NCBI RefSeq assembly: GCF_024138125.1 | Contig: NZ_CP099993.1 | Span: 1,178,001-1,242,000 of the forward strand | From: Halorussus salilacus | GTDB lineage: Archaea > Halobacteriota > Halobacteria > Halobacteriales > Haladaptataceae | Length of the DNA: 64,000 nt | Direction: 5' to 3' | Shown here: positions 40,601 to 55,665 of the stretch, one piece after another | Layout of the letters: each line of letters starts with the position of its first letter | Numbering within the stretch: position 1 is the stretch's first letter | Made by a program: the position numbers and the translations under genes | Notes under the pieces: model-generated | What the model saw: the letters and a program-made list of their open reading frames with translations, nothing else | What the model was told of the DNA's origin: nothing | Database searches by the model: none

Positions 40601-40956
40601 GGGTAGGGGTAGGGGTCGGAGGGGTGGTAGGGCTTTGGGTTTGTTTCGGGTCGGGGGCCGGGATTCGCGTTTCAGAGGCGGTAGTCGCGGAATCGGCTTG
40701 GAAGAATTCGGCTGTTGTTTCAGCTCATCAGGGTCCGGGGAGGGCGACTCAGAAAGCCCCCGGCCGGTCGCGGTCGCTCAGCGACATATCCGCGCCTCAC
40801 CGCACAGCACGACACGGCGCGGATAGGGGTCGCTGAGGCGACTACATAAACGCGACCGGCCGGGCCCTTTCGGTCCGGCCAACAGCAACCGCAGGCCACG
40901 AACCTCCCCAACCGACTGCGGTCCTCAGTCAGTCGCTCTCTTCGGTCGCTCTTTCC
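40601..40956. other. Spacer holding conserved structured element A
   Basis: No gene is visible in this 356-bp gap between the NifU-like and LVIVD genes, both on the minus strand. The first ~120 bp (40601-40720) are G-rich and lack structure. The rest is the structured element A listed separately. Small open frames (e.g. 40720-40911) follow from the repeat and are not protein-like. Confidence 0.6.
40741..40915 (-). ncRNA. Conserved structured element, copy A (candidate ncRNA)
   Basis: On the minus strand the element reads: a block GGTTGGGGAGGTTCG, then CTGCGGTTGC, GACCGAAAGGGC, an outer stem (40851-40862 with 40761-40772), TTTATGTAG, GTCGCCTCAGCGAC pairing with GTCGCTGAGCGAC, an inner stem (40816-40824 with 40788-40796), a loop with CTGTGCGGTGAG, and GGGGGCTTTCTG at the end. 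Element B at 55.3 kb keeps these single-stranded words but has different, still complementary, stem bases. Such covariation argues for a selected hairpin. RNA or DNA function cannot be decided from sequence. Confidence 0.55.
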
Positions 40957-45671: not shown

Positions 45672-46061
45672 ATGCCCCGTGGGTTCGACAGGGAACGTAC
45701 CAATGTCCACAAACTCCAGTACCACTTCATCTGGTGTCCGAAGTACCGCAAATCGGTGCTTGAGGGCGAGGTACGTGACCGTCTCAAAGAACTCATCGAG
45801 GACAAAGCCGACGAACTCGGGTTAGAGATACTGGAGTTGGCGATTCGTCCCGACCACGTTCACTTGTTCATCACGGGCGACCCGACACTCGCCCCGAACA
45901 AGATAATGCAACAGGTCAAGGGCTACTCCTCGCGCCACCTCCGCGACGAGTTCGACTTCGGCTTGCCGTCGCTGTGGACGCGCTCGTACTTTGTCTCAAG
46001 TGCGGGCGACGTATCCAGCGAAGTCATCGAGGAGTACATCGACGCCCAAGCAGGTGAGTAG
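45672..46061 (+). CDS. tnpA: IS200-type Y1 transposase TnpA
   Basis: A 129-residue HUH endonuclease that cuts and joins single-stranded element ends as a dimer. KLQYHFIWCPKYRKSVLEGE is the family start, AIRPDHVHLFITGDPTLAPN carries the HUH pair (HVH), and SSEVIEEYIDAQ the catalytic Tyr in the C-terminal helix. Length is typical. ATG 45672 was preferred to 45648 since the family starts near MPRGFDRERTN; TTCTATATACCG just upstream is A/T-rich. tnpB follows after 2 nt. Confidence 0.95.
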   Translation: MPRGFDRERTNVHKLQYHFIWCPKYRKSVLEGEVRDRLKELIEDKADELGLEILELAIRPDHVHLFITGDPTLAPNKIMQQVKGYSSRHLRDEFDFGLPSLWTRSYFVSSAGDVSSEVIEEYIDAQAGE

Positions 46062-46063
46062 TC

Positions 46064-47218
46064 ATGCAACGGAACGTCTCAACCACGGTGCGGGTCAAAC
46101 TCCACTCGCTGACCAACAGGAAAGCCGATCTGCTCGCCCGTGAGTACGAGGCGTTTCAGACCGAGGTACACGGCGGAGACGCCAACCTCTACTCCGCAAC
46201 CGACCAGCAGGCGTCGAAAGTCCAACGACAGAAAGACCCGAACCCAAACACCGAACAACCCGTCGTCCTCCGCAACGACGTGTTCGACGTGGCTCACGAC
46301 GAGGGCACCGTCCTTTCGTCGTGGTGGGTGAAAGTCCCCGTCTACGACTCCGAACAGGGGCGGGGCAACTCCATCTGGTGTCCCGCTCACGTCCCGCACA
46401 AGGACGAACAACTCGTCCGTGAGGGCGACGTTCGGGACAGCGAACTGGTGCGCCGTGACGGTGACTGGTACGTCCATCTCGTCGTAAAGCGGTCTGTGAC
46501 CGTTCAAGACGAGTATGACGACGTGCTGGCTATCGACATGGGTGCACGGTGGGTCGCTACTTGCGCGTTCCTCTCTGACCGCAAGACCACCTTCTACGGC
46601 GAGGAAGTGCGTCGTATCCGCGAACACTACAAGCAGTTGCGAAAGTCCATCGGGAAAGCGAAACCCCGACAGGGACAGCAGGTGGTAGAGCGTATCGGTG
46701 ACGCGGAAGCGCGGAAGGTGGACGACCGCCTCCACAAGATTGCACGCCAAATCGTGGAGGACGCCGAAGAACGGAACGCGGTCATCGTCGTGGGCGACCT
46801 CGGCGGGATTCGCAAGGACAACGACAAAGGGCGGTACGTCAACGACAAGACCCACAAGATGCCGTTCGCCCGCCTGCTCAACTACATTGAGTACAAGGCC
46901 CACGACGCAGGCATCGACGTACAGTTGGTCGAAGAATACGACACATCGAAGACCTGCAATCGGTGTGCCTGCGAGGGCGTGCGTGAAACGCAGGGCCGTT
47001 TTGAGTGTCCTGAGTGTGGGCTGGACGATAATGCGGACAAGAATGGTGCGCTGAATATCGGCAAACGAGCCTTGGGCAAGTTCTCGAAACCGCTGTCCGA
47101 GGCGGGGGCTGTACTGGCACAGCCCGAAACGCAGGTCATCGTCCAACGTGACGACGAACCTGCGAACCTCTCCGTATTCGTGGGTTCAACCCCCAGTGGG
47201 GGAACCCCACGGCTTTAG
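46064..47218 (+). CDS. tnpB: TnpB-like RNA-guided nuclease of IS605
   Basis: A 384-residue TnpB. RuvC-I is VLAIDMGARWVATCAFLSD (Asp near 154), RuvC-II is AVIVVGDLGGIRKDN, and RuvC-III is CGLDDNADKNGALNIGKRAL with the last Asp. The zinc ribbon is CNRCACEG ... FECPECG. At RuvC-II the usual Glu before Asp-Leu is Gly; related haloarchaeal TnpBs often have this, so the acidic residue may come from elsewhere or the protein may be inactive. An omega-like RNA would come from its 3' end. It overlaps the right-end hairpins. Confidence 0.92.
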   Translation: MQRNVSTTVRVKLHSLTNRKADLLAREYEAFQTEVHGGDANLYSATDQQASKVQRQKDPNPNTEQPVVLRNDVFDVAHDEGTVLSSWWVKVPVYDSEQGRGNSIWCPAHVPHKDEQLVREGDVRDSELVRRDGDWYVHLVVKRSVTVQDEYDDVLAIDMGARWVATCAFLSDRKTTFYGEEVRRIREHYKQLRKSIGKAKPRQGQQVVERIGDAEARKVDDRLHKIARQIVEDAEERNAVIVVGDLGGIRKDNDKGRYVNDKTHKMPFARLLNYIEYKAHDAGIDVQLVEEYDTSKTCNRCACEGVRETQGRFECPECGLDDNADKNGALNIGKRALGKFSKPLSEAGAVLAQPETQVIVQRDDEPANLSVFVGSTPSGGTPRL

Positions 47219-55081: not shown

Positions 55082-55319
55082 ACCGTGGGATTGGGGCGCG
55101 AGCGGGATTAAAGGGACGGAATCGGGTGGCTGGTGGACGAGGTGAAGTGTTTCATCGGGGGTTTCGATGATGGATTGACCACTCGGCGCGTGCTGGCGCG
55201 GTCGGCGGGAGCGAAGCGACCGACTGCTCGGCGGACGCGGTTTGTCCGCCGGTGCCCGGCGGTGTTGGGCCGCGCCGACACGCGCGAGGGACGAGCATCG
55301 CAGGCCGAAGGCCGAGAAG

Positions 55320-55495
55320 CGCAGGAGGCTGGGGAGGTTCGAGGCCCGCGGTTGCGGTGGGGTCGGGCGGGACTGAAAGGGGCCGCCCGCTCGCGTTTAT
55401 GTAGTCGCCTCAGCGACCCCTATCGCGGGCCGGGCTGTGCGGAGAGGCCCGCGATATGTCGCTGAGCGACCGCGAGCGGGCGGGGGCTTTCTGGC
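55320..55495 (+). ncRNA. Conserved structured element, copy B (candidate ncRNA)
   Basis: Order on the plus strand: GGCTGGGGAGGTTCGAGGCC, CGCGGTTGCGGTGG, GGGACTGAAAGG, outer stem 55383-55395 with 55471-55483 (13 bp perfect), TTTATGTA, GTCGCCTCAGCGAC (55404-55417) pairing with GTCGCTGAGCGAC (55458-55470), inner stem 55422-55431 with 55446-55455 (10 bp perfect), loop with CTGTGCGGAGA, then GGGGGCTTTCTGG. Against copy A the stems differ in several pairs that stay complementary while the loops match. TTTATGTA could also be a TATA box. Function unknown. Confidence 0.55.
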
Positions 55496-55665
55496 GGTTC
55501 GTCGCCATGTCTTCTGGGAGGGTGCGTAGCGAGCGGGCGGGGGCTTTCTGGCTGTTCGTCGTTCCGTGTGCTCCAACGGTTCGTAGCGAGCGACCGGTGG
55601 CTTTCCGGGACGACACCACTCAGAGTTCTCCGACTCGTCGCGAGCGGGCGGGGGCTTTCCGGAAT
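55475..55665 (+). repeat. Degenerate repeats of the element-B tail
   Basis: Four copies of a unit built on GCGAGCGGGCGGGGGCTTTC at about 55470, 55526, 55580 and 55640, each followed by TGG or CGG and a variable ~35-bp stretch. The third has GACCGGTGG instead of GGGCGGGGG. They look like tandem duplications of the last part of element B. Confidence 0.6.

Follow-up and report, generated by a model that had tools for sequence, protein, structure and literature searches.

The window, a stretch of 64,000 nucleotides from Halorussus salilacus (contig NZ_CP099993.1, positions 1,178,001 to 1,242,000), contains two related elements, copy A and copy B, each of which is a single long hairpin with a foot, a middle helix and an inner helix (Table 1). 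The foot begins with a GAAAG/CTTTC pair, followed by opposed G-G positions (three in B and two in A) and a GC helix of 13 pairs. A one-sided bulge, reading TTTATGTA in both copies, separates the foot from the middle helix, which is made up of GTCG, one bulged pyrimidine and about nine further pairs, and the inner helix TATC..GATA is capped by GGGCTGTGCGGAGA. Compared with dinucleotide shuffles, the fold strength corresponds to z values of -5.4 for A and -3.9 for B, with 0 of 200 shuffles reaching it in each case. All loop and upstream words quoted in an initial sequence-only reading were found in both copies, and their stems indeed pair and differ by paired substitutions as claimed there. However, the proposed unit of about 175 nt turned out to be composite, comprising a hairpin of about 117-120 nt and a separable module, plus a repeat tail in B. 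The upstream words TGGGGAGGTTCG and GCGGTTGC belong to a separate module, which is absent from most copies. The suggestion that TTTATGTA could serve as a promoter box was rejected, because the bulge sequence varies and reads TTCACTTCA, TGCAGTTCA, CTTGCGTG or GGCCGAAGGCCCGTG in other copies. Between A and B, the window also carries an apparently complete IS200/IS605-type element (45672-47218), with TnpA followed by TnpB.

Table 1. Parts of copies A and B in the window, and relaxase-domain genes on plasmids
Feature	Position	Strand	Remark
Copy A, hairpin core (GAAAGGGCCCGGCCGGTCGCG...CGCGACCGGCCGGGGGCTTTC, 120 nt)	40752..40871	-	model score 121 bits
Copy A, 5' side: central-module remnant (GGTTGGGGAGG..GTGGCCTGCGGTTGC..)	40872..40930	-	module shared with L290, L029/L021
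Copy A, TTTATGTAGTCGC: variable asymmetric bulge and start of helix 3	40838..40850	-	
Copy B, 5' side: central module (GGCGCGTGCTGGCGCGG...GACGAGCATCGCAG...GAAGCGCAGGAGGCTGGGGAGGTTCG..GCGGTTGCGGTG)	55185..55374	+	left boundary approximate
Copy B, hairpin core, 117 nt	55375..55491	+	model score 129 bits
Copy B, helices 1-2, 5' arm (GAAAG, internal loop GGG, CCGCCCGCTCGCG)	55375..55395	+	partner 55471-55491
Copy B, helix 3, 5' arm (GTCG-C-CTCAGCGAC, one bulged pyrimidine)	55404..55417	+	partner 55458-55470
Copy B, helix 4, 5' arm (TATCGCGGGCC)	55421..55431	+	partner 55446-55456; intervening loop GGGCTGTGCGGAGA
Copy B, tail array, three units of 54-57 nt	55492..55659	+	unit end = outer 3' arm copy
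Copy B, tail: outer 3' arm copies	55529-55548 (GCGAGCGGGCGGGGGCTTTC), 55586-55605 (variant), 55640-55659	+	
Relaxase-domain gene	L319:31552-32304, L321:16809-17561(-), L322:11689-12441, L325:20681-21289		Haloarcula conjugative plasmids

The hairpin is a module of its own, found either alone or in head-to-head pairs flanking a central module. This central module sits between two head-to-head hairpins in L290 and in L021/L029, and A and B each retain one hairpin and part of it. In the relative G314, neighbouring copies less than 700 nt apart are head-to-head in 18 of 19 cases (-+ 18, +- 1, tandem 0). Other Halorussus copies instead carry tandem units of about 27 nt upstream; a simple scan of 69 copies found two or more of these in 15. 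Downstream, 24 of the 69 have one or more tail units, each 53-57 nt long and terminated by a repeat of the outer 3' arm. The spacers of the tail units have a similarity of 0.90 within a locus and 0.49 between loci; the tail was hence rejected as a CRISPR array, its spacers being duplicated within a locus rather than unique.

Selection on a folded molecule, as the sequence-only reading had proposed, is supported by an alignment of 41 copies, in which 97.0% of pair cells are standard as compared to 86.3% in shuffles that preserve column make-up and ignore the relatedness of copies. Two-sided changes occur at 21 of the 43 pairs (148 cells), none of 500 shuffles reaches any of these measures, and pairing falls to 34-47% when the partner is slid by one to three columns. 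Across 104 copies from several genera, 97.9% of pairs are kept and two-sided changes are found at 30 of 41 pairs; the two-sided cells number 578, as compared to 168 in shuffles (0 of 500 match), but this larger alignment had been fitted to the covariance model and the 41-copy alignment is thus the fairer test. What is conserved is the shell of GAAAG, the GGG-GGG internal loop and CTTTC, and the enclosed stems vary freely in sequence and stay paired. Mismatches on the sense strand comprise 60 G.T versus 10 A.C (38 versus 10 minus the two loop-closing pairs), where a constraint on both strands, or on none, should give about equal counts, and therefore the sense strand appears to be selected to fold. 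Copy B accordingly scores 129 bits with the model in the sense and 38 bits in the antisense direction. G-U pairs constitute 1.4% of aligned pairs, a rarity that favours DNA over RNA without being decisive, and the fold is explained equally well or better by single-stranded DNA than by RNA.

A multi-copy haloarchaeal family had been among the options raised from A and B, and such a family was indeed found, with hairpins of 106-128 nt, of which the genome under study has about 70. BLAST retrieved about 41 good copies, and a covariance model built from them at least 62, far above the two seen initially. The shell pattern GAAAGGG-N80-110-GGGCTTTC gave 71 (33 forward and 38 reverse), with none for the reversed-pattern control. 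This shell is present in 217 of 292 Halobacteria genomes, the richest of which holds 175 copies; the reversed-pattern control gave no hit in most cases and never more than 2 per strand. The 175 copies are those of G314, where a second interior type (AAGCACYG...GAGGAGCGCAGCGAG) predominates. Copies are mostly intergenic, and in both genomes practically all of them fall outside the genes called with a simple codon model. Since the number of type I copies ranges within the genus Halorussus from 0-1 (G008, G013) to more than 60, amplification is lineage-specific. Rfam gave no match at gathering scores for the whole window and, for the surroundings of copy B, none even at an E value as high as 1, and no published description of the hairpin family was found by sequence words or topic in the open-access papers searched. 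Carriage by viruses was rejected, as no phage record with the hairpin and, for one exact pattern, no viral contig was found.

Individual sites are filled in one genome and empty in its relatives. Site A is 48-62 nt wide and devoid of the hairpin in three sister Halorussus species, and site B measures 118-127 nt, again with no hairpin, in two sister species, which supports the small mobile element that had been listed among the possible identities. Similarly, G314 and G176 share 91-93% identity across 20 kb, within which 718 nt of G314, containing a head-to-head pair, correspond to a clean junction in G176, even though a deletion in G176 could formally account for this difference. No target-site duplication is obvious at this one clean empty site, in genomes that are only about 92% identical. 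The near-identical copies L001 and L002 are recent. Hairpins occupying the same site in G314 and G176 are 64-76% identical, as compared to 88-95% for their flanks, and L039 and L040 share a 110-nt 3' flank with 99% identity and have unrelated interiors, each fully paired, which amounts to a whole-interior swap.

The orientation of copies was related to genes and to replication. On contig C1 of the genome under study (about 63 copies), 26 copies in codirectional gaps point with the downstream gene versus 10 against it. In G314 the corresponding numbers are 13 and 13, with no gene-orientation bias, and convergent gaps hold 22 copies versus 16 in divergent ones. A role as a 5'-regulatory element of downstream genes was rejected, given that the bias of the first genome has no counterpart in the second. 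Transposition of single-stranded DNA by Y1 enzymes typically shows a lagging-strand bias; for the hairpins, polarity relative to replication was not convincing, the best p value among six Cdc6-based choices of origin being 0.046.

All nine Haloarcula plasmids with a match carry a single hairpin, which lies upstream of a gene for an OB-fold single-stranded DNA (ssDNA)-binding protein at a distance of 490-670 nt and points away from it, with distances for part of the nine records derived from match coordinates. These genes are annotated as 'SOSS complex subunit B family' or 'hypothetical'. The same arrangement, with hairpins of type I or II, is found on Haladaptatus and Halorussus plasmids. Some OB-fold genes have no detectable hairpin, and G008 has several OB-fold genes and lacks type I repeats. 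At L168, L169, L173-L175, L190 and L191, a second hairpin type (AAGCACCGCAGG..GAGGAGCGCAG) takes the type I position upstream of plasmid OB-fold genes. In the four plasmid maps examined (pNG500, pHH126, CBA1115 plasmid 4 and H. halophila plasmid 2), a conjugation operon encoding a VirB4-like protein, a relaxase-domain protein and a coupling protein lies a few kb from the hairpin. The orc1/cdc6 genes of pNG500 are located away from the hairpin, and the GC skew of this plasmid is too flat for placing an origin. As a separate observation, the Haloarcula conjugative plasmids encode, directly ahead of the coupling protein, a protein of 203-251 amino acids with a relaxase domain of the MobA/VirD2 type and an HRDTEFPHAH motif; the domain scores 28.0 bits in pNG500 (cut-off 24.6). 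For archaeal conjugative plasmids, no relaxase homologs have been apparent (PMC9905601).

Taken together, A and B are, by a slightly better than even judgement, members of an unannotated, non-autonomous family of hairpin-ended mobile DNA of haloarchaea that is REPIN-like in its working. When a strand becomes single during replication, plasmid transfer or excision, the hairpin would fold, and its foot and unpaired words may be recognised by a shape-reading ssDNA-processing enzyme, probably a HUH-type transposase or a plasmid relaxase, which would then copy or move the element. Because such an enzyme would read shape and not stem sequence, the stems could drift by compensatory changes and by whole-interior swaps between copies. 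The chromosomal repeats may derive from the single plasmid hairpins beside the OB-fold gene, which would then be single-strand sites acting in cis, either as a transfer origin or in the leading region. The likeness to REPINs is limited to working and does not extend to membership, since no enzyme could be linked to the repeats and the model for REP-associated transposases (RAYT, NF047646) gave no score above cut-off in 145 Halobacteria genomes, as compared to 1 of 14 control genomes. Further points that count against the mobile-element reading are that the one clean empty site shows no obvious target-site duplication, that copy orientation has no clear link to the direction of replication, that a regulatory RNA would equally predict the gene-orientation bias on contig C1, and that a genome with several OB-fold genes (G008) can be devoid of type I repeats. 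A bolder version, possible though unlikely, would make these elements a novel class of mobile DNA in Archaea, composed of long single-strand hairpins with hypervariable sequence and conserved structure that descend from a single-strand site of a conjugative plasmid and spread through chromosomes by a relaxase-/OB-fold-protein-dependent route unlike that of RAYT or IS200/IS605.

The same fold could instead belong to a multi-copy structured RNA, with the hairpin transcribed as a small RNA or as a 5' or 3' UTR element and selection acting at the RNA level. Strong covariation, strand-specific pairing, the conservation of the loop GGGCKGTGCGGAGAG and the asymmetry of the internal loops would all suit such a molecule, as would the tendency of copies to point with genes in the genome under study. 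We nevertheless consider it rather unlikely, for the share of G-U pairs is low for an RNA family, the head-to-head pairs of G314 show no gene-orientation bias, sites are filled or empty between close relatives, Rfam gave no match within the limits stated above and TTTATGTA is no promoter. In another reading, a cis-acting single-strand plasmid site (a transfer origin, a leading-region single-strand promoter or a priming site) entered chromosomes as copies that do not transpose and are retained because they serve mobilisation or the handling of the genome. In its favour is the conserved single hairpin that plasmids of three genera carry beside OB-fold genes, always placed and oriented alike, with a conjugation operon and its relaxase-domain gene nearby and, on pNG500, distant orc1/cdc6 genes. 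Yet taken alone it leaves 70-175 chromosomal copies, head-to-head pairs and tail arrays unexplained; moreover, the relaxase gene is several kb from the hairpin, no nick site was identified and some OB-fold genes have no detectable hairpin, so that we regard it as quite unlikely.

Selection on the fold could also be dispensed with, if palindromes spread and stay paired through mutational mechanisms only, namely the correction of quasi-palindromes by template switching and gene conversion among the copies. Whole-interior swaps, the faster divergence of hairpins than of their flanks, the scarcity of G-U intermediates and tail arrays that are identical within and not between loci are in keeping with this. 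Correction towards a perfect palindrome should, however, erase conserved asymmetries, and these persist across genera (the GGG/GGG loop, the one-sided bulge of 8-15 nt, the bulged pyrimidine and the loop of 3-4 nt versus T). Together with the 6:1 excess of G.T over A.C, this makes a purely mutational origin very improbable.

Among known systems, the mobile hairpin family favoured here resembles REP/REPIN (BIME) repeats with RAYT (PMC3116915, PMC3733652, PMC6006769) in being high-copy, intergenic, palindromic, often in inverted pairs, non-autonomous and variable in presence between relatives. It differs in the length of the hairpin (106-128 nt versus 20-40 nt for REP), in the foot (GAAAG/CTTTC versus GTAG/CGTC), in its hypervariable stems and tandem tail units, and in the RAYT result given above; in Archaea, Quentin et al. 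found IS200-type Y1 proteins only (PMC6006769). MITEs are on record in Halobacterium and Haloquadratum (reviewed in PMC10969869). Like prokaryotic MITEs, the haloarchaeal elements are short, non-coding and multi-copy with inverted ends, but these ends fold on themselves into hairpins, in place of the simple terminal inverted repeats that MITEs share with a known IS; no target-site duplication was obvious at the one clean empty site, and no parent IS came to light. Transfer origins and leading-region sites of conjugative plasmids can likewise present a non-coding hairpin in the neighbourhood of a T4SS/relaxase operon and of a gene for an ssDNA-binding protein. Only the plasmid copies share this setting, lying near ssDNA-binding, T4SS, coupling-protein and relaxase genes on Haloarcula plasmids; the chromosomal copies are far too numerous for transfer origins, and the plasmid hairpin is a candidate site. 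Finally, in archaeal Rep-Arvir elements (SNJ2), the replication-origin hairpin of about 22 nt is single-copy, adjoins rep and requires pairing rather than sequence (PMC13107129). The hairpins described here are similarly haloarchaeal hairpins, probably of DNA, in which pairing and not sequence appears to matter, but they are far longer and multi-copy, and no sequence relation was noticed.

If the mobile-element reading is true, Archaea would possess a mobile repeat akin to REPINs that does without the transposase of bacteria, and would offer an unusual case of selection for folding on single-stranded DNA; the plasmid copies would mark out a definite region in which to look for a haloarchaeal transfer origin. 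Covariation screens for structured RNAs in archaeal genomes will meet this family and could misfile it as RNA.

Between two species, one head-to-head pair (L328:14478-14741 versus L331:995-1260) appears inverted in place with the orientation of the flanks unchanged, its alignment reaching 78.6% when inverted as compared to 69.8% in direct orientation, and in the inverted alignment GATAGG/CCTATC stands opposite GAGAGG/CCTCTC, a two-sided change.
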